This document shows positions 14,275 to 49,689 of a stretch of 64,000 nt of DNA, one piece after another. Both the position numbers and the translations under genes were made by a program. The stretch comes from Lachnospiraceae bacterium (GTDB taxonomy: Bacteria; Bacillota; Clostridia; Lachnospirales; Lachnospiraceae). The DNA is taken from positions 1 through 64,000 of the forward strand of contig JAFVXW010000015.1 of assembly GCA_017500935.1 (NCBI GenBank), given 5' to 3'. Position 1 is the first letter of the stretch; every line of letters begins with the position of its first letter. The notes below the pieces were generated by a model. It was given only the letters and a program-made list of their open reading frames with translations, was not told the DNA's origin and searched no databases.

Positions 14275-14313
14275 AAAGGAGGAATCGGCTAATGCCGATT
14301 CCTCCTTTTGTTT
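14275..14313 (+). terminator. Rho-independent terminator after the trans-sulfuration gene
   Basis: Perfect 15 bp stem AAAGGAGGAATCGGC (14275-14289), loop TAAT, GCCGATTCCTCCTTT (14294-14308), then TGTTT. It overlaps the stop of the convergent yesN-like gene and may work in both directions. Confidence 0.9.
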
Positions 14314-15826
14314 ATAACTGTTTTTGCCGATACTCCTTCGGCGTAACACCAAGCTTTTTTTTGAATACCTTATAAAAATATCTGGGATCGTCATACCCAA
14401 TCATAACCGAGATCTCAGACGCCGGAACATCTGTTGTTTCCAATTCTCTGCAGGCCGCCTCAATCCGTACCTGTGTCAGATAATCTGTAGGACTCAGTCC
14501 CTCATCCTTTTTAAAGATTGAAGCAAAATATCTGGGATTCAAATGAAACTGGTTTGCAAGTATGCTCAGAGAAAGATCCTCTCTATAATGCTCCCGAATA
14601 AATAACTTGACCCGTTCAGACAGCGGAAGTCCTTCTGCATGAATACGGTGACAGGATTTTTCGAGTTCCTCCCTGATCGACTTTAGGATTTCCGAAAGGT
14701 TTGCGCAGTATGTCCAGCTTTTCTTTTCAATATAATCCTTCCAGAATTGTTTGTTGGGATTAAAGCCCAGTTCGATCATCAGATCATACAAATACTGGAA
14801 CAGAAAATCCAGATTGTAAATATGCGGATATAATTTCACCACAAGCTTTTCAAACTCTGCAGCTGCTTCTTCCCCTTCTTTACCTTTTACCCTGTCTGCA
14901 AAACTGGGGACATCAAGGATCTGCGCAATATCCGCACTTTCCCTGATCGCACGGCAGGAATAAACACTGCCGATACCGCGCTCATAACGCTGATTCAATG
15001 CTTTTTCTGCCGAAAGCATAAAACCGGAATCTATCACTTTTTCAGGCTTGCTCAACCCCACCGATACAATTGCACCGCTGTTTTTTATACGCTGTACAAT
15101 ATCCTGCCAGACAGAATGTATGACCGTTTCTTTTTCGTTAAGCTGCGTTCCCATAAGCAGAAAAAAACCGTTTTGTGCTCTTTTATAAGGAAGTATTTTA
15201 CTCAGCACCGGCATTCGGGCAGAAAGCTGCTGTTCCATACTGCGGTATACATCCTCAACAGAAGCATATCTGTCATGCCTGTAGGTACTCACATGCACTG
15301 CCGCACACAAAAACTCAAAATCTGTTTCCGCTCCAAGATATACTAAAAGCTTTCCGTATTCCGTTTCCGAAATGATATCCTGACGGCATTTCATAAGCAG
15401 ATTGGCCAGATTCAGCTGTTCATTTTCCAAAAGTGCCTTCGACAGCCGTGTGGATTCATTCTGCTTATTGATCGCCTTATTGACTGCCGAAAAAAGCTTT
15501 TCCTGTGTGATGGGCTTGAGCAGATAGGCGCATACATCATTTTCCAAAGCAGTCTGCATATACTCAAATTCCGCAAATCCGCTTACTACAATAAAAGAAG
15601 TCTGTATATTCTGCATGCGGCATCGCTGGATCAGCTCAAGACCGGTGATATACTCCATGCGCACATCTGTGATCACAATATCCGGCCTCATTTCTTCTAT
15701 AATATGCCACGCCTCCAGACCAGATCCGGCAAAAAAAATCTGTTCAAATTCGTAATTTCCCTTTTTCAGCCGGGCTGCCAATGCCTCTCTTATTAAGTAT
15801 TCATCATCTGCGATCAGCAGTTTCAT
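14312..15826 (-). CDS. YesN-type response regulator (REC + AraC HTH)
   Basis: 504 aa. The N-terminal receiver domain has the acidic pocket IADDEY, the phospho-acceptor Asp54 in VITDVRM, a conserved Ser in FIVVSGFAEFEY and Lys in LLKPI. A long central region (about 130-390) without a recognised motif is typical of the YesN group. The C-terminal ~100 residues are two AraC helix-turn-helices (LSLSILANQFHLNPRYFASI and IGYDDPRYFYKVFKKKLGV). The gene begins one base after the kinase stop, so the pair is cotranscribed. Expected to activate the divergent sugar-transporter/glycyl-radical operon at 18052 in response to an external sugar. Confidence 0.92.
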   Translation of the reverse strand: MKLLIADDEYLIREALAARLKKGNYEFEQIFFAGSGLEAWHIIEEMRPDIVITDVRMEYITGLELIQRCRMQNIQTSFIVVSGFAEFEYMQTALENDVCAYLLKPITQEKLFSAVNKAINKQNESTRLSKALLENEQLNLANLLMKCRQDIISETEYGKLLVYLGAETDFEFLCAAVHVSTYRHDRYASVEDVYRSMEQQLSARMPVLSKILPYKRAQNGFFLLMGTQLNEKETVIHSVWQDIVQRIKNSGAIVSVGLSKPEKVIDSGFMLSAEKALNQRYERGIGSVYSCRAIRESADIAQILDVPSFADRVKGKEGEEAAAEFEKLVVKLYPHIYNLDFLFQYLYDLMIELGFNPNKQFWKDYIEKKSWTYCANLSEILKSIREELEKSCHRIHAEGLPLSERVKLFIREHYREDLSLSILANQFHLNPRYFASIFKKDEGLSPTDYLTQVRIEAACRELETTDVPASEISVMIGYDDPRYFYKVFKKKLGVTPKEYRQKQL

Positions 15827-17635
15827 TTATTTCTTTACCTCGTACTCATTCTTTTGCAGATCCTCATCGTGCTCAGACTCGGGAAGTATCAGAACGGTGC
15901 CCATCCCCTGTCCGGGTGCAGTCTCTATGAAAATCTGATATCTTTCTCCGTATTTTAAGCGAAGGCGGTTATGGATATTGAGAATGCCAATACTGTCATT
16001 CTGCTCCCCAAAATCACCGAGAGGATTTCCTTGCAGTTTTTCCATCAGATTCCGGAAGGCATTTTCCTCCATACCGTTTCCGTCATCGCGAAGTTCTATT
16101 TTGATAGATTGATCAATCTTACAAACCTGCAGCCGGATATTTCCCGCTGCCGCATTTTTGAAGCCGTGCTTGATGCAGTTTTCAACCAGTGGCTGCAAAA
16201 TAAGCTTCATCATCGGCAGATCCAGACATTCTTCTTCAATCTCTTCATAAAGACGGTATCTGTTCTGAAACCGCAGATTCTGTATATAAAGGTAATCTCT
16301 CATATAATCAAGTTCTTCCCGCAGCGTAACAATGCCGGAAGAATTATGATTGATACTGTAGCGCAGAAGAGAGGAGAGCCGCGCATTTACCTCACAGGCT
16401 GTGTCATATTCTCCAATCTCCACCAGCGAATTGATGATCTCCAGAGAGTTGAATAGAAAATGCGGCTGTATCTGCGCCTGCAGAGCCAGAAGCTGAGCAT
16501 CCTTTTTCTTCATTTCGCTGATATAATTGGTTTCGATCAGCTGCCGTGTTCTGTGCACCATCTCCGTAAAACTGGAATCAAAAATACCGATCTCATCAGA
16601 AGCATATACCGCATCAGCCACTTCAAGATCTCCTTTGGCAACCGCATCCACCTTCTCGATCACATGATCAAAACGTCTCTGTATGTGCAAAGACAATGCC
16701 ATTCCCAAACCAAAGGTCAAAAAAACCAATCCTAACAGTCCTGCTGAAAGCACGCGGTTGAGCAGCTTTACTTCTGCATAAAACTCCTCAAAGGAATCAT
16801 AATAAACAGCCCGCAGACCTTTGGCAGAATACATACTTGTCAGATACCTTCCCGCAGAACCATCAAAGGGAGCGATCCTGAACCGCGTATACCATTTGTC
16901 GATATATTGTCCTGCATATTCCAGATATTCCTCCATATCCGGAGTCTGCGCACCATAGACATATTCTCCTTTGGCATTCACGACAAAAATCTTGCCTGCA
17001 TACTCCTCACTCATTCCCTTATTAGTTCGGAATACATTTCTGGGCCATACGCTCAGTCGGATCACACAGACCACTTCTCTGCCGTCCGGATCATAAATCG
17101 GATACAGTACGGAAACCAGCTTGGTCTGATACGGCTCATTATTGTGCACAAAATAACGGTGAAACTCCTGATTCTCCAGTTTGGTTCGAAAAGTTTCCGA
17201 CAAATCTTCCTTTTCCCGAATCATATATGTTTTCCCGCTGCGACATCGATTCATAGGATAAAAAGCCATATCATAGAATCCGTATGGAAACTGATCCTTG
17301 AGAATACTGCGGATCCGGCGGTCCAAAACAGAATAATCTGCATCGGAAAGCATTTCATGTGAAAAACGTTCTCTCAGCGTTTCATCACCCGCAAAGGCTT
17401 CCAGCAATTCTTCATAATCAGCAAAACGATACGCAATATTGTTGACATAGGATTCCAGAAATTGCTCAGAAGCCTCCTGTGACTTGTTGATCACAAGCTG
17501 CACCATATAAGGTCTGAGCAAAACATGGGTCAGCAAAAACTCTGCCAGCATCAGAAACAGAAGAAAGCAGATATACTTATGTACCAGCTTGGTATGATAC
17601 AAAAAACGATTCCAGAGCTTTCGCAGATAGTTCAT
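15827..17635 (-). CDS. YesM-type sensor histidine kinase
   Basis: 602 aa membrane kinase. TM1 about 20-45, an extracytoplasmic Cache-like sensor about 46-290, TM2 about 293-318, a HAMP segment, then the His_kinase domain with QIQPHFLFNSLEIIN (His392 as phosphoacceptor). The N box is QPLVENCIKHGF and the G boxes are RDDGNGM and GILNIHNRL in the C-terminal ATPase domain. YesM kinases pair with YesN regulators and commonly sense oligosaccharides. It is immediately upstream of the regulator and divergent from an ABC importer gene, supporting a role in sensing that importer's substrate. Confidence 0.92.
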   Translation of the reverse strand: MNYLRKLWNRFLYHTKLVHKYICFLLFLMLAEFLLTHVLLRPYMVQLVINKSQEASEQFLESYVNNIAYRFADYEELLEAFAGDETLRERFSHEMLSDADYSVLDRRIRSILKDQFPYGFYDMAFYPMNRCRSGKTYMIREKEDLSETFRTKLENQEFHRYFVHNNEPYQTKLVSVLYPIYDPDGREVVCVIRLSVWPRNVFRTNKGMSEEYAGKIFVVNAKGEYVYGAQTPDMEEYLEYAGQYIDKWYTRFRIAPFDGSAGRYLTSMYSAKGLRAVYYDSFEEFYAEVKLLNRVLSAGLLGLVFLTFGLGMALSLHIQRRFDHVIEKVDAVAKGDLEVADAVYASDEIGIFDSSFTEMVHRTRQLIETNYISEMKKKDAQLLALQAQIQPHFLFNSLEIINSLVEIGEYDTACEVNARLSSLLRYSINHNSSGIVTLREELDYMRDYLYIQNLRFQNRYRLYEEIEEECLDLPMMKLILQPLVENCIKHGFKNAAAGNIRLQVCKIDQSIKIELRDDGNGMEENAFRNLMEKLQGNPLGDFGEQNDSIGILNIHNRLRLKYGERYQIFIETAPGQGMGTVLILPESEHDEDLQKNEYEVKK

Positions 17636-17960
17636 AAACAGCCTCTTTCATCATTCTAAACAAAAACAACATGATTATATCTATTTTATTCCTCCAAAAT
17701 GTCTCTGTCAATGCAACTTCCGAACGCTTATATTACAATTTTCCACATGGCTGCGGATAAATTTCTTTTTTTCAAAGCTGCGCATATCCGAAGGTATGAA
17801 ACTTACATTTCATTTACTTTTTATATCATTTTTTTTACCGAGGTCTCAAAAGGCCCCGGTATTTATGCAAAAAATGCGGGAATCTTACAATAATCCGTGC
17901 CCTTATCACGCATTTATGTTCATCTTACTTTTTTCCATACTTAATCTGACAATATTCCAT

Positions 17961-17989
17961 TTTTACACACAGATTGTATTTAGTATAAT
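17961..17989 (+). promoter_or_regulatory. Promoter of the sugar ABC importer operon
   Basis: Consensus -10 TATAAT (17984-17989); at 17 bp spacing only a weak -35 TTTTAC (17961-17966), as expected for a promoter that needs an activator such as the adjacent YesN regulator. Start about 17996. Confidence 0.65.
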
Positions 17990-17999
17990 ACATATATGG

Positions 18000-18021
18000 T
18001 CTGAAATAGGGGTATTTCAGA
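18000..18021. promoter_or_regulatory. Inverted repeat at the importer operon start
   Basis: TCTGAAATA (18000-18008), GGGG, TATTTCAGA (18013-18021): perfect 9 bp arms at about +4 to +25 of the transcript. Operator or 5'-end RNA hairpin; compare the oppA start. Confidence 0.6.
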
Positions 18022-18051
18022 TACAAGATAATTTATTGGAGGGAAGTATTT

Positions 18052-19452
18052 ATGAAAAAGAAAGTACTTGCAACATTACTCGCGTCCTCTATGATTATTG
18101 GTATGCTCGCTGGCTGTGGCGCAAAAGATGAAACTTCTGCACCCGCTGCTGACACCAAGACCGAAGAGAAGGCCGAAGAAAAAGCAGAAGAACCTGCTGC
18201 AACTGGTGAAAAGACTGTTATCAGAATGCTCACCATTCTTGGTAACCCTACCAGAGATGAACTGACCCAGAAGATCGTTGCTGAACATACCGACGGCTCC
18301 ATCGAACTGGAAATCATTTCTCCTCCCGCTGACCAGTCCAGACAGAAGATGATCACCATGCTGCAGGCTCAGGAAGATATCGATATCGTTGAGCTTGGTA
18401 ACATCACCATGGTTGACTACATCAACAACAACTGGATCGCTCCTCTCGATGATTACATCGCAGAATGGGAAGATTACGCAACTCTGCAGCAGACTCTGAA
18501 AGATCAGGCAGTTTCTTACGACGGACATTTCTACGGCGTAGCGAACGGTCTGTATCAGAAAGCTCTGTTCTATCGTAAAGACTGGTTAGAAGAAGCTGGT
18601 CTTAGTGTTCCTACCACTATGGAAGAGTTCTATGATGTAGCTCTGGCTCTTACCGATCCCGCTAACAACAGATATGGTTATTCTTACCGTGCAGGCAGCG
18701 GCGGTGCCGGCTTCCTTGATAACCATGTTCGTTCCGATCTGGGCTCCAAATACATCACCACCGCAATGCCCAACGTTACCAATGAACGCAAGAACATCTG
18801 GGAATATCCCGAAGCTGTTGCTGCTGCTCAGTACTGGGTAGATCTGTTCCAGAACTGCTCCAATCCCGACGCTGTAGCATGGGGCTATCCTGAAACTGTT
18901 GAATCCTTCTACTCCGGCACAGCTGCTATGCTGATTCAGGACCCTGAAGTTATCGCTACCTGTGCAGAATACATGGAAGACGGTACTTGGGACGTTGCTC
19001 CCCTTCCCGTTGGTCTGTCCGGCGAATCCTGGAACAACGCTGGTTCCGGCGCTTGGGGTATCACCTCTTACTCCGAAAAGAAAGATGCTGCTTGGGCAGT
19101 TATCGCAGCTCTGAGCGGTGTTGAAGGCAACAACGAATGGTGTAAGGTTAACGGTAACCTTCCTATTCATACCACCGCAGCAGAAGACCCTTACTTCGGT
19201 GAAGGCTACTATGCAGCTTACTCTGTAATGGCTAACAAGCCCGATGCTCATAAGTGGTATGCAGATGCTAACGAAACTCTGTGGATGACCAAAGAAGAGC
19301 TGGATCAGAGAAACTCCAACACTGAAAACGATCTGAAGTTCCAGGAACTGGTTCTTGGTGCGATCTCTCCTGAAGAATACTGCGAATGGAGAGCACAGTT
19401 CGATGCATGGTGTCATGATTCCGAATGGGTTAAGGAAGTATATCCTGACTAA
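18052..19452 (+). CDS. Sugar ABC transporter substrate-binding lipoprotein (SBP family 1)
   Basis: 466 aa extracellular binding protein. The signal peptide has KKK at 2-4 and the lipobox MLAGC with Cys22, followed by a flexible acidic linker (TKTEEKAEEKAEEPA) at about 34-48 that repeats the OppA linker. The mature part is a MalE-type bilobal fold: IRMLTILGNPTRDELTQKI, KDWLEEAGLSVPTTMEEFYD and a late GSGAWGITSYSEKKDAAW segment are typical of oligosaccharide or sugar-acid binders. Codon use is strongly biased, suggesting high expression. ATG 18052 follows GGAGGGAAGTATTT. First gene of an importer operon that continues with two permeases; no dedicated ATPase gene is present, so a shared MsmK-type ATPase is likely used. 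Confidence 0.93.
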   Translation: MKKKVLATLLASSMIIGMLAGCGAKDETSAPAADTKTEEKAEEKAEEPAATGEKTVIRMLTILGNPTRDELTQKIVAEHTDGSIELEIISPPADQSRQKMITMLQAQEDIDIVELGNITMVDYINNNWIAPLDDYIAEWEDYATLQQTLKDQAVSYDGHFYGVANGLYQKALFYRKDWLEEAGLSVPTTMEEFYDVALALTDPANNRYGYSYRAGSGGAGFLDNHVRSDLGSKYITTAMPNVTNERKNIWEYPEAVAAAQYWVDLFQNCSNPDAVAWGYPETVESFYSGTAAMLIQDPEVIATCAEYMEDGTWDVAPLPVGLSGESWNNAGSGAWGITSYSEKKDAAWAVIAALSGVEGNNEWCKVNGNLPIHTTAAEDPYFGEGYYAAYSVMANKPDAHKWYADANETLWMTKEELDQRNSNTENDLKFQELVLGAISPEEYCEWRAQFDAWCHDSEWVKEVYPD

Positions 19453-19492
19453 TACATCATCAATCAAATATTGATTCCATGAATTAATCTGG

Positions 19493-19521
19493 CGGCCGGA
19501 GCTGGCTTACGGCTCCGGCCG
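19493..19521 (+). promoter_or_regulatory. Intercistronic stem-loop after the binding-protein gene
   Basis: CGGCCGGAGC (19493-19502) and GCTCCGGCCG (19512-19521), perfect 10 bp GC-rich arms with a 9 nt loop, followed by a short run TAAGTTTTA. Same position as the oppA-oppB stem-loop; likely protects the binding-protein mRNA and lowers permease expression. Confidence 0.75.
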
Positions 19522-19545
19522 TAAGTTTTAATCAAGGAGGTATGA

Positions 19546-20457
19546 ATGAATCCAAACAAAAAATTGATTAGCCGAAAAACAAAAGATACAATCTTTATCA
19601 TCAGCTTTCTGGCAATTCCTGTCTTTTTGCTGCTGGTATTTTTGTATTATCCCTCCATTGACGGTATCATCATGTCTTTCCAGGATGTTAAGGCATATGA
19701 TATGTACAACAAATCTTTCGCCGGTTTTGAAAACTACGAAAAACTTTTTAATTCTTCCATTAACGGCGTTATCTGGAAGAATACTTTCCTCTGGCTGGTA
19801 GTCTGCTTATCTGCTGAGTTTGTCATGGGCTTTGGTCTGGCACTGCTTCTGCAGGCTGACTTCCCCGGCAGAAAAGTTTACGAAGCAGTTGTATTCGTTC
19901 CCTGGGCGCTGTCCGGTTTCGTAGTTGGTGTTATCTGGAAATGGATGTTCAACGGCAACACCGGCGTTATCAACGATATTCTGATGCGTCTTGGTATCAT
20001 CGAAAAACAGGTTGGTTTCCTTTCCAATCCCAATGCTGCGATCTACTGCGTTATCGTAGCTAAGGTATGGACCGGTATGGCATTCTTCTCCATCGTTACC
20101 ATGGCAGCGCTGCGTACCGTTCCCAAGGATATGTATGAAGCAGCTGATATCGACGGTGCCAATGGCATACAGAAATTCTTCTACATCACGATCCCTTCCA
20201 TCAAGACCCTGCTGCTGCTCACCATTATGATGAGAGCGATCGCAATGATGAACTCTCCTGACCTAATCTTTGGTATGACCGGCGGCGGTCCTGCCGGACG
20301 AAGCCACACGGTATCTTCCTATATCATGACAGAAGTAGTACACGGTACTGACTACGGTCTGATCTCCGCATCCAGTGTGCTTCTGTGGCTGGCAACCATG
20401 GCATTTGCAATTGTTTACCTGATCACCACTAAAGCAACGAAGGGAAGTGATTCATAA
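19546..20457 (+). CDS. Sugar ABC transporter permease (MalF/UgpA type)
   Basis: 303 aa, six membrane segments. It starts with a short basic tail (RKTKDTIFIISFLAIPVFLL), has the periplasmic KAYDMYNKSFAGFENYEKLF region characteristic of MalF-like permeases, and the EAA loop DMYEAADIDGANGIQKFFYI near residue 200, which docks on the ATPase. AAGGAGGT precedes ATG 19546 by five bases; another ATG four bases upstream is out of frame and stops quickly. Forms the channel with the next gene. Confidence 0.94.
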   Translation: MNPNKKLISRKTKDTIFIISFLAIPVFLLLVFLYYPSIDGIIMSFQDVKAYDMYNKSFAGFENYEKLFNSSINGVIWKNTFLWLVVCLSAEFVMGFGLALLLQADFPGRKVYEAVVFVPWALSGFVVGVIWKWMFNGNTGVINDILMRLGIIEKQVGFLSNPNAAIYCVIVAKVWTGMAFFSIVTMAALRTVPKDMYEAADIDGANGIQKFFYITIPSIKTLLLLTIMMRAIAMMNSPDLIFGMTGGGPAGRSHTVSSYIMTEVVHGTDYGLISASSVLLWLATMAFAIVYLITTKATKGSDS

Positions 20458-21299
20458 TGAAGAAAAAGAAAACACCTCAGTATTTTATCGGTAAATTTTT
20501 TAAGTTTTTATTACTGGCTTTCTTCGTCATTTATACATTATTCCCTCTGGTTTGGCTGCTGCTTTCCTCCATCAAATCCAAAAAGGAAATGTATAATTTC
20601 CCCGTTGAATACTGGCCTGATCATCCGACCCTGATCAACTATCAGGAAGTTATGGGTATGGGTAACTTCGGAAGATTTACCTTAAACAGCTTTTTGCTTG
20701 CTCTGGCAGTCGGTGCCGGTGCAGCAGTCTTTTCCCTGATGGTTGCCTATGTCCTTGCCAGAATGGATTTCAAGTTAAAGCCTCTCATTATGGGTCTTTT
20801 CCTGATGACCCAGATGCTTCCCGGCGCAGCAGGATTTGCTCCCCTGTACATCTTAATGTCCAAACTGGGTCTGGTTAACAAGCTGACCACCGTAATGGTT
20901 ATCTTGATCGCCGGCAGTATTACATTTGGTATGTTCCTGCAGTTAGGCTTTTTGCAGAGTATCCCTTCCGCACTGGAAGACGCAGCAATGATCGATGGCT
21001 GCGGCAGAGCAAGAATGTTCAGACACGTAATCATTCCTCTGTCCACACCCGGTCTGTTCACCGTATTTATTTTCCAGTTCCTGTCCGGTTGGAATGATGT
21101 ATACACCTCTGTATTGTACGTAAATGACAATAAGCTCAAAACTCTTGCTGTTGCTATTTACTCCATGATCGGTACCTATGATATCAACTGGGGTCATGTA
21201 GCAGCAGGTACCACCATCGCCATGGTTCCCGCGATCGTGCTCTTTACCTGTATGAAGGACGTATTCATTGAAAATATCGGCGGTGCAGTAAAAGAATAA
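20457..21299 (+). CDS. Sugar ABC transporter permease (MalG/UgpE type)
   Basis: 280 aa, six membrane segments, with FPLVWLLLSSIKSKKEMYNFP at the N terminus and the EAA loop SALEDAAMIDGCGRARMFRH near residue 180, both typical of CUT1 permeases. The ATG overlaps the previous stop by one base (TAATGA), so the two subunits are translated in a coupled way. A terminator follows, then the glycyl-radical genes on the same strand. Confidence 0.94.
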   Translation: MKKKKTPQYFIGKFFKFLLLAFFVIYTLFPLVWLLLSSIKSKKEMYNFPVEYWPDHPTLINYQEVMGMGNFGRFTLNSFLLALAVGAGAAVFSLMVAYVLARMDFKLKPLIMGLFLMTQMLPGAAGFAPLYILMSKLGLVNKLTTVMVILIAGSITFGMFLQLGFLQSIPSALEDAAMIDGCGRARMFRHVIIPLSTPGLFTVFIFQFLSGWNDVYTSVLYVNDNKLKTLAVAIYSMIGTYDINWGHVAAGTTIAMVPAIVLFTCMKDVFIENIGGAVKE

Positions 21300-21349
21300 T
21301 TCTTAAATCGAAACGATACTTCATTGTTTCCGCATAAATTTATTAACTT

Positions 21350-21386
21350 AAAGGGAGTATTGCCATAATGCAATGCTCCCTTTTTT
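21350..21386 (+). terminator. Terminator between importer and glycyl-radical genes
   Basis: AAGGGAGTATTGC (from 21351), loop CATAAT, GCAATGCTCCCTT, then TTTT; one T-G pair in the stem. Placed 20 nt before the activase gene, so read-through or a separate promoter must supply the downstream genes. Confidence 0.8.
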
Positions 21387-21405
21387 AAACTAATCTGGTG
21401 ATTTT

Positions 21406-22296
21406 ATGCAAACTGGTACTATTTTTAATATTCAGCCGTTTTCCATTTACGACGGCCCCGGCATCCGCACCACAGTCTTTTTAAAAGGCTGTAATCTAAG
21501 ATGTGCATGGTGCCACAATCCGGAATCCTGGATCATTTCACCACAGCTTGAATTTCTCTCCGAAAAATGTATCGGCTGCGGTGCCTGTTTTACGGCTTGT
21601 CCCAACAATGCACATATTGCATCTGAATCCGGTCATTTAATAGACAGAAGCAAATGCAAAAACTGCGGTCTTTGTGCCCAGACCTGTTATGCGGGTGCCC
21701 TGACAATGGCAGGCAGACAGGTCACATCTGAAGAAGTGTTCGGCCGTATTCTGGAAGATGCCCCCTATTTTAAAAACAGCGGCGGCGGCGTTACTTTTTC
21801 CGGCGGTGAATGTATGATGCAGCTGGATTTTCTCTGCGAGCTTTTAAAGTTGTGCAAAGAAGCCGGTATTCATACCGCTGTTGATACTGCAGGACATTTT
21901 CCATTCTCCAGCTTTGAAAAAATCCTGCCCTGGACGGATCTTTTCCTCTATGATATCAAAGCCTTTGATCCCGAAACGCATAAGAAGCTTACCGGCGTGC
22001 GTAATGAAAGGATTCTTGAAAATCTGCCTCTTTTATGTGAACGCGGTGCCAATGTTTTTATCCGGATTCCCTGTATTCCGGACGGAAACTGGCAGGATAT
22101 GGAGCAGATTGCGGAATATTTAAAAAATATTCCGGTACAGAAGGTCGAACTTCTGGCATATCACCGCCTGGGTGAAGGAAAACGCAAATCTCTGGGAATG
22201 GACGTTGTGACTTTCCGCACACCGTCTCCTGAAGAAATGGAGAATCTGTTAACATTATTTACCGATAAGGGAATACCTGCGGTTTACAATCGCTGA
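21406..22296 (+). CDS. Glycyl-radical enzyme activating protein (radical SAM)
   Basis: 296 aa. The N-terminal motif FLKGCNLRCAWCHNPE gives the radical-SAM cluster ligands Cys29, Cys33 and Cys36 (CX3CX2C). An inserted ferredoxin-like domain follows with two further 4Fe-4S sites: CIGCGACFTACP and CKNCGLCAQTCYAGAL. The SAM-binding SGGGVTFSGGECMMQ stretch is near residue 130. This eight-Cys insert is the rule for activases other than that of pyruvate formate-lyase itself. It abstracts H from a glycine of its partner enzyme, encoded 19 bp downstream. Its ribosome site is weak, unlike that of the enzyme, consistent with low activase and high enzyme levels. Confidence 0.93.
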   Translation: MQTGTIFNIQPFSIYDGPGIRTTVFLKGCNLRCAWCHNPESWIISPQLEFLSEKCIGCGACFTACPNNAHIASESGHLIDRSKCKNCGLCAQTCYAGALTMAGRQVTSEEVFGRILEDAPYFKNSGGGVTFSGGECMMQLDFLCELLKLCKEAGIHTAVDTAGHFPFSSFEKILPWTDLFLYDIKAFDPETHKKLTGVRNERILENLPLLCERGANVFIRIPCIPDGNWQDMEQIAEYLKNIPVQKVELLAYHRLGEGKRKSLGMDVVTFRTPSPEEMENLLTLFTDKGIPAVYNR

Positions 22297-22315
22297 TCAG
22301 ACAGGAGGATTTAAC

Positions 22316-24502
22316 ATGTCTGCAATTCATCTCAAACCAATCGTATCTGACTTTTACGCACAGAAAATCCAGTCGCTTCACGACGAAAAAGTAAAGGTCA
22401 ACAAACGCAAACTTGAACTTTACGGCGGTGCCTATGACACCGATGACCATGGATTTATCTGTTTTGAAGACTTTACATTTACTCCCGAATATCTTCCGGG
22501 CAAAAACCGTATCGAAGGCCCCAAAAATGTAGGCGAAAATATCGGCCGTCTGTTTTCGGAGCTTCCTGTCTACATTCATAAGGACAGTGCCCTGGCAGGC
22601 GCATGGGCAGGCATCTTTAAAAAATGGTGCAACGGCGGTATGAATCCCGATGATTTTCCTGCCGAGATCAAAGCAGTTCATCAAAAATACCATATGATTT
22701 CCTCCGGCATCGGCGGTATGAACCATTTGGGACCCGATATGAACATTGCGCTCCGTGAAGGTTATCCCGGTCTGTTAAATAAAGTCCGTTTTTACCGTAC
22801 CTTTAACAATCCTGCAGATACCGGTTTCTATGACGGTGAAGAGGCTGTTGTCCTGGGTATTCTGGAATACATCAGACGCCATGCTGCCTATGCCAGAGAG
22901 CTTGCTGCCGCTGAAACCGATATCCAGTACCGTAAAAACTATAACCGGATCGCGCAGACCTGTGAAAACCTGCTTGCCGGCCCTCCTGCCACTTTCCTGG
23001 AAGCCTGCCAGCTGATCGCTGTTTTCCAGTGTATCGACCGTACTTATTTCCACGGCGGTGCTTTGTCCCAGCTTGACGAACTGCTCCGTCCTTTTTATGA
23101 AAGAGACATCAAGGCAGGTATCCTTTCCGATGAAGAAGCGGTCTGGATCCTGGCGAGTCTTTTCTACAATGACACCCATTATTCCCAGATCGGCGGTCAG
23201 ACTCCTGACGGAAGCCGTGATCTTACCAGCCGTATGTCCTATCTGATCCTGGAAGCAGTACATTTGTTAAAGATTCCCTACAATCTGGCTGTACGCGTTT
23301 ATCCCGGCATGGATGAGGGACTGCTGCGCAGATCTTTGGAATATATCATGGAAGACGGCTCCGGCCCCGATTTTTCCTGTGCGACCGGTATCGAAGAAGG
23401 CTACTGCAAACAGGGTCATCCCAGAGAACTGGCAAGAATGCGTGCCAAAGTGGGATGTAACTGGGTTGCTTTGCCCGGCATCGAATATCCTCTGCAGGAT
23501 GTAACCCGTCTGAATATGGGATGGCCTTTTGTCATTGCTTTGGATGAAATCATGGAAGAGGGAGAACCTTCCCTTGACAAACTTTGGAACAGATTCGAAT
23601 ATCATCTTGCGCAGATGGTACAGTGTATCAAAGACGGCTATGATTTCCATTATGAAACGGTTTCCGATATCGCTCCCGAAATCGTTCTGAATCTTTTCTG
23701 CCACGGTCCGATCGAGCGCGGTCTGAATGCCGCACAGGGCGGTGTTGATATCATCAATCTGAATGTTGACGGTATCGCTCTGGCTACGATCGCAGACTCC
23801 TTTGCAGCGATCGAACAGCGTGTTGTAAATGAAAAACGCTTAAGCTGGGACGAAATGTATGCAGCGGTTAAAAACAATTTTGAAGGTGCTGAAAATATCC
23901 GCCTGATGCTCAAAAATATTCCCCGTTTCGGAAGTCCCGAATCTCTTGCCCGCAATTGGGCTAAGAAGATCAGCACCACTTACACTGATCTGGTAAACAG
24001 CTCACCGACTCCCAAGCACCATCTGCGTGTCGTACCCGGCCTGTTCTCCCACGGAGATATTTACATGCACGGCGCGGATCTTCCCGCAACCCCCAATGGA
24101 CGTAAAGCAGGAGAGCCAATTTCCCATTCTTCTGAGCCCGATCCCGGATTTGCAAGCGGTCTGACCAGCTTCTCACCCACCTTAAAATCCAATGCCGTGG
24201 CAATGGTACAGCCCGGTCTTGGCAATTCCGCACCTCTGCATCTGGATATCGATGCAGATATGGTAAACAGACACGGCGGTATTGACGCACTGGTTGCGCT
24301 GATCAAAACCCATGACGAGATGGGCGGTACTCTGATCAACTTAAACTGCATCACAAAAGACCGCATCAAACGTGCCCATGAAGATCCCGACTCCGAGCCT
24401 GATCTTTTAGTACGTGTAACCGGTTATTCCGCATTCTTTGCATCTCTTACCAAGGATTACCGTCAGCAGATCGTTGACCGTTATCTGACAGACGAGGCAT
24501 AA
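22316..24502 (+). CDS. Glycyl-radical enzyme of unknown substrate
   Basis: 728 aa member of the pyruvate formate-lyase superfamily; oxygen-sensitive, cytosolic. The radical-bearing Gly is Gly703 in RVTGYSAFF, 26 residues from the end. The thiyl Cys is Cys381 in the context VGCNWVALPGIE. Diol dehydratases, choline lyase and related enzymes have Cys-Val-Glu here, with Glu as the general base, so this enzyme is unlikely to be one of those. An AGGAGG site precedes ATG 22316. It is linked to its activase and follows a sugar importer and YesMN pair, which suggests a carbohydrate-derived substrate, but the reaction is unknown. Confidence 0.9.
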   Translation: MSAIHLKPIVSDFYAQKIQSLHDEKVKVNKRKLELYGGAYDTDDHGFICFEDFTFTPEYLPGKNRIEGPKNVGENIGRLFSELPVYIHKDSALAGAWAGIFKKWCNGGMNPDDFPAEIKAVHQKYHMISSGIGGMNHLGPDMNIALREGYPGLLNKVRFYRTFNNPADTGFYDGEEAVVLGILEYIRRHAAYARELAAAETDIQYRKNYNRIAQTCENLLAGPPATFLEACQLIAVFQCIDRTYFHGGALSQLDELLRPFYERDIKAGILSDEEAVWILASLFYNDTHYSQIGGQTPDGSRDLTSRMSYLILEAVHLLKIPYNLAVRVYPGMDEGLLRRSLEYIMEDGSGPDFSCATGIEEGYCKQGHPRELARMRAKVGCNWVALPGIEYPLQDVTRLNMGWPFVIALDEIMEEGEPSLDKLWNRFEYHLAQMVQCIKDGYDFHYETVSDIAPEIVLNLFCHGPIERGLNAAQGGVDIINLNVDGIALATIADSFAAIEQRVVNEKRLSWDEMYAAVKNNFEGAENIRLMLKNIPRFGSPESLARNWAKKISTTYTDLVNSSPTPKHHLRVVPGLFSHGDIYMHGADLPATPNGRKAGEPISHSSEPDPGFASGLTSFSPTLKSNAVAMVQPGLGNSAPLHLDIDADMVNRHGGIDALVALIKTHDEMGGTLINLNCITKDRIKRAHEDPDSEPDLLVRVTGYSAFFASLTKDYRQQIVDRYLTDEA

Positions 24503-44464: not shown

Positions 44465-47299
44465 TTATCTGTAAATCTTCACCTGTGCAATGCAGTAAGG
44501 ATCTACGGTAAACTTCACAGCACCGTCTTCCACAGCTGCCTGTGCAAGTTCTTCTTCGTTCAGATTTGTCAGAACTGCCTTAACAGGAGCAAAAGGAGTA
44601 CGGATCACGATTTCATCTGCTTCACCTGCATTCTCATAAAGACGTACAGTCAGAGCATCGTCTGCAGACATCTGTACGCTGGTGAGTACGGAATGTGCCG
44701 CATCAAAGCCAAGTAAAGAAGCCTTTGCAGCCATTTTACCGGGATGACAGCCGGTGGGAACACCAATCATAGGACGTATCAGACATTCGCCTGCACGTTT
44801 TAACTGGGTAGGGCAGCCTTCTGTCAGTGCCGCAAACAGCTTGATCGCATGGATGCCGCGTTCCGGATAAGGATCGGGATCAAAGGAAGTATTGATCAGG
44901 GAGTAGGTCAGGGTATTGTCAGCAAAACGTACACCGTACTTGCAGTCGCTGATCAGGGCAACTGTTGTTCCTTCTGTCACTGCACATACACCGGTAAGAG
45001 CAGGAACGTCCATCTGTTTCTGATTACGGAATGCAGTACCCGCAGGAACATCTGTCATGATCATGTCAGATCCCTTCTTAAGAGGCATACGGTAGGTCAG
45101 AAGAGGGATGTATTCCTGATTATTGCGGGCTTCCTTCCAGTCTACGGTAAAATTGTAAGCCAGAGCATCTGCACCTGCATCCAGAGATACATTCACAGTT
45201 ACTTCAGAGCTCATTACTTTCTGCTTAAAGGTTACGCTGTTCTGCAGATTTCCTTTGGAAACTTCCACTTTCCAGGTATCCACAACAGGTTCAACTTTCA
45301 GGTAACGGCCGATGGACCATGCAGTCATGCCGCCGTCTTCGGTATGTACAAGATGCAGACCTGCGGGACCGGAGAGCATTTCTTCCCCTGTCTTTTTGTC
45401 GATGAGGGACTGAAGCATACCGCTTCCGGTATCAAAGGTTGCACACAGCTTTTCGTTTTCAAGTACGATCGCTTCCTTGGGATATTCTTCGTGTTCATTC
45501 TGCTGCAGCCATACAGGATACTGGGTAATCTCTTTTTCACATACTGCACAGGTTGCATAACCGAATGCCGGAACTTCGATTTCCACAAGAATGCGCACAT
45601 AGCTGTGATCCCAATAACTCTGAGGTTCTTTGTCTTTTACCTGGAATGCCAGCTTCTTTCCTTCGCTGTCGATGACTTCCAGACGATTCATCACGCCGGT
45701 GTAATCCCATACAGTCAGTTCCACAACTTCTTTTCTGTCCATTGCAGAAGGATTAAATACAGTATAAATACGATGCTTACCCGCGCCTCTTTCGGGATTG
45801 GGAACGCCTGCATAGTTGGCGATGCCGTAACCTACACCGGCACCCTCTGCACGTTCAAATGCAATGTCATCGTCATTGGGGAACATGGTGGTATCCACGT
45901 TCTGGGAGATTGCTTCCATGGCAGCAGACTGTTCAGACTGTGCATGTGCGATCGCCTCTGAAAATTTACCCATCGCATATTCTCTGGTTTCCTGTACGCC
46001 GGAGCCGGTCAGAATATCATGGAAATGGTTAAACAGCACATTCTGCCAGGATTTTGTATATCTTTCAGGTGCATATTCAGTATCCAGCACGCAGTGAGTC
46101 AGTGCACTCAAACGCTCGGAATCCAGAAGTCCTGCTTCTGCACGGCGGTTGCCAAGCTTTACGCGGCTCTGGGTTGTATAGCAGCCGGTAAAGATCGCAT
46201 TCAGTTCATGATCCACAACGGGCAGACCTTCGCGGACTTTTTCCGCTTTTTCAAAGAATTCGTGAAGAGTACCGAATTTGAAGGTGGGGAAGATCGGCCA
46301 CTGCATCATTTCCGTGATGGTTTCAATATCGCGTCTGGTAGGGCCGCCGCCGTGGTCACCGACACCGTAAACCACCAGGGCAGTCTTTAAGCCGTTGCAG
46401 CGTTTTTCCATTTCAAATACAAATACGCCGTTTTCGTGGTTGGCACCGCTGTTGTACCAGTAAGGCTCCTTATACATCAGCACTTCCTTGCCGGAGGGTG
46501 CTTTATAGCGGTATAAAGTAACTTCTTCCTGCAGACCGCGGCAGTGGTAATAGTAAGGCACGCTGCCGAAATTGTTGATTTCGGGAACAAAACGGCTGTG
46601 ACCAAAGGTATCGGGAGAAAAGTCTACTTTTACGCCTTCAACGCCCCATACATCACGCAGATAATCACGGGTCAGCTTGATGTGACGGATCAGGGATTCG
46701 GTATCAGGCATATTTTTATCGGTTTCAACCCATGCATTTGCAGTTACTTCCCAGCGGCCTTCCGCAATACGCTGCTTGATTTCTTCCATCATGGAAGGAC
46801 GGTATTCTTCCACAATCTTGTATACAGAAGCCTGAGACTGCGCATAGGTAAAATCAGGATATTCTTTCATCAGATTCAGGATGGTACGGAAAGTGGAAAG
46901 AGTGACTGCCACGGTTTCCTGCCAGCCCCACATCCAGTTCATATCGATATGAGCATGGGAAACAAAAAGAACTTCATATTCTTTTGCCGCATCCTTTAAG
47001 GGCATCAGAATTTCTTCCGCCTTCATGCATGCAGTTTTGGTAAGAACACTTTCTTCCTCCATGCAGTTTTCCAGTACAGTCAGTGCTGCATCGATCTGGG
47101 CATCATATTTGCCTTCAAAACGTTCAGACAAATGCAGGGCAAAATGCAGTTCGGATAAAATGCGGTGATTTGCTTTTGCCGGTCTGGTGATGCGAAACTT
47201 GTCTTCATGCGGAATTGCAGATGAATAATTGTACTCGTAATACTCACGGTTGCCGCCAACTTTTCTTTTCAGTTTTTCATAGCGTGCTGCCAAATTCAT
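44465..47299 (-). CDS. GH38 alpha-mannosidase
   Basis: 944 aa. Family signatures: VSHAHIDMNWMWGWQET near residue 115 for zinc binding (His and Asp), VKVDFSPDTFGHSRF near 230 with the nucleophile Asp, and FNHFHDILTGSGVQETREY with further zinc ligand His. The C-terminal half is the usual beta-rich GH38 domain. Zinc-dependent retaining enzyme that removes alpha-mannose from N-glycan or yeast-mannan fragments; no signal peptide, so cytoplasmic. ATG 47297-47299 has AAGAAAGGAGCACTTTT. Strong promoter upstream; codon use suggests good expression. Confidence 0.93.
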   Translation of the reverse strand: MNLAARYEKLKRKVGGNREYYEYNYSSAIPHEDKFRITRPAKANHRILSELHFALHLSERFEGKYDAQIDAALTVLENCMEEESVLTKTACMKAEEILMPLKDAAKEYEVLFVSHAHIDMNWMWGWQETVAVTLSTFRTILNLMKEYPDFTYAQSQASVYKIVEEYRPSMMEEIKQRIAEGRWEVTANAWVETDKNMPDTESLIRHIKLTRDYLRDVWGVEGVKVDFSPDTFGHSRFVPEINNFGSVPYYYHCRGLQEEVTLYRYKAPSGKEVLMYKEPYWYNSGANHENGVFVFEMEKRCNGLKTALVVYGVGDHGGGPTRRDIETITEMMQWPIFPTFKFGTLHEFFEKAEKVREGLPVVDHELNAIFTGCYTTQSRVKLGNRRAEAGLLDSERLSALTHCVLDTEYAPERYTKSWQNVLFNHFHDILTGSGVQETREYAMGKFSEAIAHAQSEQSAAMEAISQNVDTTMFPNDDDIAFERAEGAGVGYGIANYAGVPNPERGAGKHRIYTVFNPSAMDRKEVVELTVWDYTGVMNRLEVIDSEGKKLAFQVKDKEPQSYWDHSYVRILVEIEVPAFGYATCAVCEKEITQYPVWLQQNEHEEYPKEAIVLENEKLCATFDTGSGMLQSLIDKKTGEEMLSGPAGLHLVHTEDGGMTAWSIGRYLKVEPVVDTWKVEVSKGNLQNSVTFKQKVMSSEVTVNVSLDAGADALAYNFTVDWKEARNNQEYIPLLTYRMPLKKGSDMIMTDVPAGTAFRNQKQMDVPALTGVCAVTEGTTVALISDCKYGVRFADNTLTYSLINTSFDPDPYPERGIHAIKLFAALTEGCPTQLKRAGECLIRPMIGVPTGCHPGKMAAKASLLGFDAAHSVLTSVQMSADDALTVRLYENAGEADEIVIRTPFAPVKAVLTNLNEEELAQAAVEDGAVKFTVDPYCIAQVKIYR

Positions 47300-47488: not shown

Positions 47489-48583
47489 ATGGAAAAAATC
47501 ATAAAATGTCCTGAAACCATGTCTTCCCGCGAGCGTGTGATCAGAACTTTCAACTATGAAAAAACAGACCGCGTGACCATCGGTTATCATGCAAATCCCG
47601 GCATCCATCAGCGTTTAAAGGATGCTCTGGGTGTTGTCACAGATGAACAGCTTTTTCAGGCGCTGGGTGTAGATGACAGAAGTATTTCTGCTCCCTACAC
47701 AGGTCCTCAGATTTTTACCGCACCTCCCAACAGAAGAGTGGATCCTTTAGAAGGCTGTCTGATGCGCAAAGTGGAGCATGACACCGGATACTACTGGGAT
47801 TTCTGCGATTTCCCGCTGCAGGATGCGGAAGATGAGGATTTTGAAAAATTCCCGGTTCCCAATCCCGATCATTTTGACTATGACCAGGCACTTGCACAGG
47901 CAAAATCCTATGAAGGAAAATACGGTTTATATGTAGGAAATGCCGGAACTCCCGACATTATTAATTCAAACGGCCGCATCATGGGTATGGAGGACATACT
48001 CTGCCATCTTTTAACCAATGATCCTGCTGCAATGGCTTTTGTAAACCGCCGTGTAGATTTTCAGTTTGGCATGATGGAACGTCTTTTAGACAAATGCAAA
48101 GGCTATATTGACTTTATGTGGCTTGGAGAAGATCTTGGTACCCAGATCGGTCCCATGATCAGTCTGGAACTTTACCGTAATACCTTAAAACCCATCCATA
48201 AAAAATTTGCGGATCTGGCTGCTGCTTACAACATTCCTTCCATCATCCATACCTGCGGCAGCTCCAGCTGGGTGTATGAAGATTTCATTGAGATCGGTAT
48301 CAAGGGTGTAGATACCCTGCAGCCTGAAGCAGTCAATATGTCACCGTCTTACCTGACAGAGCATTTTGGCGGCCGTTTGAATTTCCGCGGCTGTATTTCC
48401 ACCGCAGGTCCTCTGGCTTACGGCACACAGGAAGATGTCTGGAACAATTGTAAGGAAACGCTGGAGATCATGATGCCTCACCGCGGTTATCATTTTGCAC
48501 CGACCCATGAGATTCAGGACAATACTCCCACTGAAAATGCCATCGCCATGTATCAGGCGGCACATACGCTGGGCAGATATTGA
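47489..48583 (+). CDS. Uroporphyrinogen-decarboxylase-family protein, copy B
   Basis: 364 aa TIM barrel. MSSRERVIRTFNYEKTDRV at the start is the typical opening of methyltransferase-like URO-D proteins (Arg-Glu-Arg, then EKTDR). IIHTCGSSSW holds a possible zinc His/Cys pair and FRGCISTAGPLAYG supplies another Cys. Expected to act in methyl transfer from an unknown methylated substrate, by family resemblance. AAAGGAGTTTTCC precedes ATG 47489. Followed after 32 bp by copy C, then a DMT transporter. Confidence 0.8.
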   Translation: MEKIIKCPETMSSRERVIRTFNYEKTDRVTIGYHANPGIHQRLKDALGVVTDEQLFQALGVDDRSISAPYTGPQIFTAPPNRRVDPLEGCLMRKVEHDTGYYWDFCDFPLQDAEDEDFEKFPVPNPDHFDYDQALAQAKSYEGKYGLYVGNAGTPDIINSNGRIMGMEDILCHLLTNDPAAMAFVNRRVDFQFGMMERLLDKCKGYIDFMWLGEDLGTQIGPMISLELYRNTLKPIHKKFADLAAAYNIPSIIHTCGSSSWVYEDFIEIGIKGVDTLQPEAVNMSPSYLTEHFGGRLNFRGCISTAGPLAYGTQEDVWNNCKETLEIMMPHRGYHFAPTHEIQDNTPTENAIAMYQAAHTLGRY

Positions 48584-48615
48584 TTTTTTCATACCATGCT
48601 GAATTGGAGAAACTT

Positions 48616-49689
48616 ATGATGACTGCAAGAGAACGAGTTTTAAAGGCCCTGCATTTTGAAAAACCCGACAGAATGCCCTTTGAGATCAGCTGGGGCGCTT
48701 TTACACCCTCTTTGATGAAAGTATATCAGGAGCAGACCGGCAGTGATCTGGATCCTGCTGATTATTTTGATTTTGATACCAGATCTGTCGCGCCCGGTCC
48801 GACCCGGAAAAATACCGATTTTTCCAAATATTATTCCTGTCCCATCCCGGAAAATGCCACATTTAATGAATGGGGCATCGGTTTTGTTCCCGGATCCACG
48901 GAACATTTTGTGGAATTTAAGTTTCACCCGCTTTCTTTTTGCACGACAGCAGAAGAGGTAAAAGCATTTGAATGGCCGGACATTGATGCCGATTACCGCT
49001 ACGAAGGCTTAAAAGAGCAGATTGAAGCTTACAAAAAAGCCGGATATGCTGTGACAGGAGACATGGTCTGTACCATTTTTGAGACTGCCTGGCAGCTGCG
49101 CGGGCTGGAAACCTTTCTGATGGATATGTACGAAGAAGAGGAGATTGCAGAGGCCATCTGTGAAAAACTCTGTGAACTGCGGATCAATCAGGCAAAAAAA
49201 CTGGCCGGACTTGGCGTGGATATCCTTCGTCTTGGAGACGATGTGGCAACCCAGAACGGTCCCTTGATGAGCCGTGAACATTACGGCAGATTTTTTAAGA
49301 AATATATGAAACAGATCATTGATGCCGCCAGAGAAGTCAATCCTGATATTCTGATATTCCGGCACTGTGACGGCAATGTGATGGATCTGATTGATGATTT
49401 TATTGAGGAAGGCATCGATATTCTCAATCCAGTGCAGCCTGAATGCAATGATCTGGCACTCATCTATGAAAAGTACGGTGACAGACTCGCATTCTGGGGC
49501 GGTATCGGCACCCAGAGCACCATGCCCTTTGGCAGTTCTTCTGATGTTGAAAAAGCAGTTCTGGAAGTTCAAAAACTGCTCGGCGGCCGCGGTGCGCTTG
49601 TCATTGCTCCCAGTCATATTCTGGAACCCGAAGTTCCCTGGGAAAATGTGACTGCCTTTGTGGAAACGGTTAAAAAATCCTTTTATTAG
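48616..49689 (+). CDS. Uroporphyrinogen-decarboxylase-family protein, copy C
   Basis: 358 aa, same opening (TARERVLKALHFEKPDRMPF) as copy B. The central site reads IFRHCDGNVMDL, and the later one AFWGGIGTQSTMPFG, so the HxC pair of copies A and B is HCDG here and the second Cys is absent, suggesting a different metal site or substrate. ATG 48616 has TTGGAGAAACTT upstream; an earlier in-frame start overlaps copy B and lacks a signal. Cotranscribed with copy B. The three paralogues differ enough to act on different compounds. Confidence 0.8.
   Translation: MMTARERVLKALHFEKPDRMPFEISWGAFTPSLMKVYQEQTGSDLDPADYFDFDTRSVAPGPTRKNTDFSKYYSCPIPENATFNEWGIGFVPGSTEHFVEFKFHPLSFCTTAEEVKAFEWPDIDADYRYEGLKEQIEAYKKAGYAVTGDMVCTIFETAWQLRGLETFLMDMYEEEEIAEAICEKLCELRINQAKKLAGLGVDILRLGDDVATQNGPLMSREHYGRFFKKYMKQIIDAAREVNPDILIFRHCDGNVMDLIDDFIEEGIDILNPVQPECNDLALIYEKYGDRLAFWGGIGTQSTMPFGSSSDVEKAVLEVQKLLGGRGALVIAPSHILEPEVPWENVTAFVETVKKSFY

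Follow-up and report, generated by a model that had tools for sequence, protein, structure and literature searches.

Eliminases among the glycyl-radical enzymes (GREs) are thought to need a glutamate in the loop around the catalytic cysteine (Cys loop). The respective motif, CXE, was used as defined in PMC8473560. According to PMC12441222, PflD and YbiW of E. coli ring-open 1,5-anhydromannitol-6-phosphate and 1,5-anhydroglucitol-6-phosphate to 1-deoxyfructose-6-phosphate. PMC11528403 describes aminoacyl radical enzymes, deviant relatives of GREs without the radical glycine, from Eubacteriales genomes. Here we analyzed a GRE encoded on contig JAFVXW010000015.1 (assembly GCA_017500935.1) of a Lachnospiraceae bacterium, the genome of which is labelled G000. 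The whole stretch under analysis, positions 1 to 64,000 of the contig, is referred to as the window. The GRE gene (22316..24502, + strand, 728 aa) belongs to a module of seven genes at 14312-24502, which also encodes a YesN-YesM two-component system, a sugar-type ATP-binding cassette (ABC) importer, and a radical-SAM activase. Sequence comparisons provide good support for the view that the enzyme is a member of a distinct, apparently undescribed GRE subfamily, for which we use our own name, the CXW clade.

Membership of the enzyme in the GRE superfamily was evident from the glycyl loop RVTGYS with Gly703, the catalytic Cys381, and the radical-SAM activase partner, and the Pfam profiles PFL-like and Gly_radical were matched with 249 bits and 42 bits, respectively. 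The enzyme matched 12 NCBIfam GRE families, none of them above the cut-off (best TIGR01774, 219.9 versus 678.2); the named families tested were CutC, HypD, HpsG/HpfG, the PflD type, HPAD, IAD, and PFL. Among solved structures, 34 distinct GRE-related sequences were matched with at most 163 bits. An alignment was generated from 43 sequences, i.e., 21 family members, 19 non-family GREs encoded by the same genome as the window enzyme, and the E. coli proteins YbiW, PflD, and PflB. In the resulting tree, the window enzyme and 20 relatives formed one clade with a support of 100/100 and a stem of 2.27 changes per column, which was separate from PflD and YbiW (100/100); the deep branching order among the other GREs was poorly resolved. 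The sequence-only reading had named grouping with a characterized GRE family of known substrate as speaking against it, and by these scores and the tree the enzyme belongs to no such family. Filing the enzyme under a known family was rejected on the basis of the curated scores and the Cys-loop motif. A profile of the clade placed PflD nearest among the solved structures, with 292 bits narrowly ahead of choline lyase with 286 bits, and assignment to PflD was rejected in view of this small margin and the different Cys loop. Identity with pyruvate formate-lyase was also rejected, because the window enzyme has Gly-Cys where PflB has two adjacent cysteines. No description of the clade or of the module's gene set was found in searches of open-licence papers; such a cluster may already be drawn, without a function, in the 2017 GRE network paper.

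The most conspicuous feature of the clade is the exchange in the Cys loop. The residue at Cys+2 was tryptophan in all 21 family rows, with the pattern C-[NHS]-W, whereas it was glutamate in 19 of the 22 other GREs, the exceptions being PflB (Ser), L025_6 (Gln), and L030_7 (Gly). In the window enzyme, the loop is Cys381-Asn382-Trp383 (23456..23464; this and the following codons on the + strand). The CXE motif is absent, and because its glutamate is replaced by tryptophan, the enzyme lacks a defining feature of the GRE eliminases. The radical machinery is retained, with Cys381 present in all 43 aligned rows and Gly703 (24422..24424), the glycyl radical position, in 21/21 members of the clade. 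Glu390 at Cys+9 (23483..23485) was found in 21/21 clade members and in 3/22 other GREs, making it a candidate for a substitute base. His137 (22724..22726; 21/21 versus 19/22) and Asp395 (23498..23500; 21/21 versus 4/22) align with residues of glycerol dehydratase that we take to be His164 and Asp447 and, presumably, residues of its substrate site. Further invariant residues of the clade's own are Arg376, Tyr289, Gln291, Asn594, Asn675, Thr702, and more. The same Cys loop was seen in a copy from genome G959 (C3; L063 / L068), the gene of which carries three in-frame TGA codons. The diagnostic motif C-[NHS]-W-x4-[PG].E, i.e., GC[NHS]W...PG.E[YF], can serve to find members that are at present annotated no more precisely than "pyruvate formate lyase family protein".

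Relatives were collected by whole-genome searches at E <= 1e-100, using overlapping genome sets, each of which included genomes already known to be positive. Positive genomes made up 4/61 of the relatives, 9/392 of the order, 3/398 of the phylum, 4/397 of the own family, and 6/38 of one other family; two further sets yielded 1/1 and 1/17. L009, from a Clostridia metagenome-assembled genome from buffalo rumen, was added from a scan of named genomes. Homologues with 38% identity are encoded on plasmids of the marine Bacteroidota Flammeovirga kamogawensis and Persicobacter psychrovividus, both publicly annotated as "pyruvate formate lyase family protein"; among the best 10 of 38 matching records, the third best, after these two, was 25% identical. 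The hit counts and the plasmid homologues show that the family is rare and scattered and yet crosses phyla. Altogether, 23 family loci were considered, including two that were left out of the alignment and the tree, the TGA-interrupted copy from G959 and a remnant on contig C79 of the window's genome. This remnant (L057, 9391-10249) consists of pieces of a CXW enzyme gene with 63-65% identity; by eye, it adjoins an alcohol-dehydrogenase-like gene, and an ABC importer is encoded a few kb away.

The association with importers was quantified by counting genes for a solute-binding protein (SBP) or a permease that are similar to those of the window and share a gene run with the GRE. As controls, 18 other full-length GREs were used, all from the window's genome. 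An importer was present in the gene run of 7/23 family loci versus 0/18 controls when gaps of up to 300 bases were allowed (Fisher p 0.012), and of 9/23 versus 0/18 with gaps of up to 750 bases (p 0.0025). Omission of the window resulted in 6/22 and 8/22 versus 0/18 (p 0.024 and 0.0047). Any importer gene within 10 kb of the GRE was found at 10/23 family loci (permeases only) versus 1/17 controls, the latter becoming 2/17 when an SBP gene of the same type as that of the importer is counted, which lies about 8.4 kb off the GRE at L038, outside its gene run. An activase was encoded in the GRE's gene run at 17/23 family loci versus 7/18 controls (p 0.031). These neighbourhood p-values are optimistic, because the controls stem from one genome and several of the family loci are closely related to each other. 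Importers encoded next to the other CXW enzymes were mostly only about 25% identical to that of the window and not orthologous to it, and at E 1e-70, orthologues of the window's importer were detected in 2/116 genomes, including G000 itself. In summary, the pairing of importer and GRE recurs, while the importer itself does not.

A sugar-catabolic neighbourhood was also observed at other family loci. In Flammeovirga and Persicobacter, the GRE-activase pair is situated inside polysaccharide-utilization clusters with SusC/SusD, a sodium:solute symporter, and the glycoside hydrolases GH47 and GH130, and the Flammeovirga cluster also contains a sulfatase. Directly behind the GRE gene of both, as well as in genome G816, lies a gene for a small cupin-like protein (L064 20137-20547; L065 20145-20564; L067 10506-10916), which is possibly a pathway partner; the L064 protein is related to CA_C3497 (60 bits), which has a solved structure but no known function. 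The G816 cluster includes a D-lyxose isomerase and a PfkB kinase. A GH38 gene lies 61 bases behind the gene of a paralogue on contig C48 of the window's genome, another one shares the gene run of the GRE in G1009, and the sole GH130 gene of G740 lies about 280 bases behind the GRE. A mannose-6-phosphate-isomerase-like gene in G339 and a homologue of it were further mannose-type neighbours. Taken together, GH38 plus GH130 genes within 10 kb of family GREs were observed three times versus 0.67 expected (P 0.03).

In the window, the seven genes of the module are open reading frames with Pfam matches above the curated cut-offs, so that the gene set named by the sequence-only reading was borne out in full. 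The response regulator of the YesN type (14312..15826, - strand, 504 aa; Response_reg, HTH_18) and the sensor histidine kinase of the YesM type (15827..17635, - strand, 602 aa; dCache_1, His_kinase, HATPase_c) are separated by a divergent control region of 416 bp (17636..18051) from five genes on the + strand. These five encode a sugar-type solute-binding lipoprotein (18052..19452, 466 aa; SBP_bac_1, LAGC lipobox in the translation), two CUT1-type permeases (19546..20457, 303 aa, and 20457..21299, 280 aa; both BPD_transp_1), the activase (21406..22296, 296 aa; Radical_SAM, Fer4, NCBIfam TIGR02494 with 341 bits at a cut-off of 174), and the GRE, in one tight run with gaps of 93, -1, 106, and 19 bases. 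The binding protein and two permeases divergent from YesM and YesN constitute a CUT1 importer with YesMN control. The best NCBIfam relatives of the permeases were MalF/UgpA for the first and UgpE/GlcU for the second, all below cut-off, and a phmmer comparison of the binding protein with solved chains gave weak, mixed matches to sugar binders (best Lin1841, 57 bits). An ATPase subunit is absent from the module genes; no search was made for a shared ATPase of the MsmX type at other places in the genome. Between the genes for the binding protein and the first permease lies a GC-rich hairpin of 13 bp (19492..19522, + strand). The divergent region contains two promoter-like sites, each with 11/12 consensus matches (17962-17989, + strand; 17711-17683, - strand), and the 11 such sites in the whole stretch are no excess over the mean of 12.5 in shuffled sequences. 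Imperfect direct repeats at 17881-17896 / 17943-17958 are possibly regulator sites. The GRE gene is followed by a beta-galactosidase gene on the other strand. Further glycan genes in the 64 kb are two GH95 genes, a GH32-type gene, GH43, an alpha-L-fucosidase, a PfkB sugar kinase, and a GH38 alpha-mannosidase gene (44465-47299) at a distance of 20 kb from the module. Two adjoining URO-D-like genes (47489-49689) lie behind the latter, and by eye, genes resembling this pair are present near some other GREs (L026, L033, L038).

We hypothesized that, in anaerobic carbohydrate catabolism, the CXW enzyme cleaves a C-O bond in a sugar derivative without phosphate by radical chemistry, a plausible but tentative reading about which we are somewhat more doubtful than confident. 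The analysis establishes the genes with their sugar-catabolic surroundings, the clade, and the exchanged residue, whereas we infer the individual reaction steps, the class of substrate, and the dependence on the importer. In this proposal, YesM would sense an extracellular sugar and YesN would switch on the operon, and the importer would bring in a sugar or an oligosaccharide without phosphorylating it. The activase would generate the glycyl radical on Gly703, and the radical would pass to Cys381, as expected from established GRE biochemistry. The thiyl radical may then abstract a hydrogen from a carbon of the non-phosphorylated sugar derivative, either the imported compound or a product released from it, whereupon a C-O bond next to it would break to yield a ketone for further breakdown. 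As in glycerol dehydratase, His137 could donate the proton; Trp383 might stack on the sugar ring, and Glu390 might stand in for the CXE glutamate as base. The C-O cleavage is proposed by analogy with the ring-opening by PflD and YbiW. The leading guess for the substrate is a manno-configured sugar, an anhydro-sugar, or a mannoside, and the manno configuration is offered as a suggestion only. As a quite improbable extension, the clade might be a radical counterpart of glycosidases, which would abstract hydrogen and split a C-O bond in a mannoside or anhydro-sugar that carries no phosphate, without the CXE base, within polysaccharide-utilization clusters of Bacillota and Bacteroidota. If this is true, neither the class of GRE reaction nor the pathway of sugar degradation has been described before.

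Several observations weigh against the proposed cleavage of an imported, possibly manno-configured, sugar. The kinship with PflD is a weak argument, because PflD keeps CXE and acts on a phosphorylated substrate. The predicted structure (window enzyme and L009 sequences) reached a mean pLDDT of 40.5 and a pTM of 0.29 and was set aside, so that the placement of Trp383 and Glu390 relative to the active site is presumed. The mannose idea was formed only after the loci had been viewed, and the count of mannose-type genes (8/23 versus 0/17) was obtained with query proteins from these very loci. GH38 alone gave no significant excess (two observed versus 0.58 expected), and such genes are numerous in the host genome, with 16 versus 0 to 11 in 15 other genomes searched. 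The nearest glycosidase in the window is the beta-galactosidase. Gfo/Idh oxidoreductases were encoded at 8/23 family loci versus 3/17 controls (p 0.30, not significant). Importer and enzyme are also separable. Genome G005, of the same genus, has orthologues of YesN (52% identity), YesM (50%), the binding protein (52%), and the permeases (69% and 67%), which are followed by a GH32-family gene, which is not a mannosidase, and an esterase-like gene. This stretch of 16.7 kb contains no GRE gene; the family GRE of G005 is encoded on another contig among Gfo/Idh genes. Conversely, no importer match was found in the 20-kb stretches around the full-length paralogues on contigs C48 and C2 of the window's genome. 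These separations, together with the lack of orthology among the importers of the family, are what would be expected if the two were chance neighbours, the importer taking up an oligosaccharide for glycosidases outside the cell or in the cytoplasm and the enzyme serving another pathway. The close spacing on one strand, 106 and 19 bases, and the recurrence of the pairing, also without the window and with the reservation that the loci are not all independent, argue against this explanation, and we regard it as quite unlikely. The coupling of enzyme and importer put forward by the sequence-only reading is thus only partly supported: the shared gene run and the recurrent pairing stood, whereas the enzyme may or may not act on the imported compound itself. 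Separate occurrence in related genomes, which that reading had named as speaking against it, was found in part, namely in G005. Possibly, the importer takes up an oligosaccharide and the enzyme acts on just one portion of it, or importer and enzyme may be unrelated.

Alternatively, the enzyme could be an ordinary dehydratase with a shifted base, which performs the usual 1,2-elimination of GREs on a polyol or sugar alcohol, with another carboxylate replacing the CXE glutamate, so that only the layout of the active site would be new. Glu390 is such a new, invariant carboxylate, His137 and Asp395, which have counterparts in glycerol dehydratase, are invariant in the clade as well, and the nearest solved relatives are eliminases. 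However, positions beyond the Cys loop have switched together with it, i.e., R376, Y289, Q291, N594, N675, and T702, and we consider this explanation doubtful, though it retains a fair share of probability. The loss of the CXE base could also indicate a different reaction class, such as epimerization, decarboxylation, or C-C cleavage, with a keto-sugar or a sugar acid as substrate that neighbouring Gfo/Idh oxidoreductases would provide. Up to six Gfo/Idh genes are located beside some relatives, and xylose-isomerase-like (AP_endonuc_2) TIM barrels and FAD oxidoreductases occur there too. An enolase-superfamily gene was also seen among the neighbours. Oxidation of the Gfo/Idh type takes part in beta-eliminative deglycosylation, which counts in favour of this possibility. 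The same applies to sugar-phosphate-isomerase-like enzymes, which occur in that process according to PMC10628242. In contrast, the stretches examined around the window enzyme and its closest relatives (66-53% identical) lack a Gfo/Idh gene, L009 and L044 being short contigs, and the enrichment of such genes over other GREs is not significant, as stated above. A different reaction class is judged unlikely.

The host genome of 3.56 Mb is unusually rich in GREs. It encodes at least 23 full-length PFL-like GREs, 22 in loci L023-L046 including the window and a PFL at C84:140913, and with 25 candidates in a first look it leads 150 genomes of the family, followed by G027 with 17 and then 10. The CXE motif is kept by 17 of the 19 non-CXW GREs at L023-L045. 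Among 18 other GREs tested (L023-L039), 11 lack an activase gene in the run to which they belong, and thus activases may be shared among GREs. On contig C48 (L045, 4851-14056), tandem GRE-activase pairs, one with CWE and one with CXW, are followed by the GH38 gene on the same strand. On contig C76 (36156-50077; L038, L072), a GRE of the CME type is accompanied within about 12 kb by Gfo/Idh and TIM-barrel genes and by an importer related to that of the window (SBP 32%, permeases 41% and 32% identical). A genome with at least 23 GREs suggests itself as a source of further new reactions. A clade with an invariant tryptophan in place of the glutamate, retained radical machinery, and a tie to sugar import makes altered GRE chemistry on carbohydrates directly amenable to testing.

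A comparison with the known systems shows where the CXW enzyme departs from each of them. PflD and YbiW belong to the same superfamily and, by sequence, to the same fold family, they act on sugar ring substrates, and PflD is the best solved profile match. Their Cys loops are CVE and CIE, in contrast to the tryptophan of the CXW clade, they are situated on separate branches of the tree, and the window enzyme scores 166 bits with PRK09983 at a cut-off of 1109. Their substrates are phosphorylated by phosphotransferase systems, as stated in PMC12441222, whereas the importers at CXW loci are of the ABC type. The B12-independent glycerol/propanediol dehydratases, CutC, HypD, and the sulfopropanediol lyases share the PFL-like fold family, the catalytic cysteine, the glycyl loop, and the dedicated activase with the window enzyme, and glycerol dehydratase in addition has the residues that align with His137 and Asp395. 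Unlike the window enzyme, all of them have CXE in the alignments (1r8w, 9f3w, 6lon, 2f3o, 6vxc), and the window enzyme is far below all of the respective NCBIfam equivalog cut-offs. No microcompartment or downstream aldehyde enzymes were identified in the window. In the aminoacyl radical enzymes, the radical residue is changed, whereas the window enzyme keeps Gly703 and has exchanged the Cys-loop glutamate instead. With YesMN-regulated CUT1 importers, the module shares the order of YesN-YesM divergent from SBP-permease-permease, as in the orthologue of G005, but at the position of the GH32-family gene of G005, the window appends the activase and the GRE.

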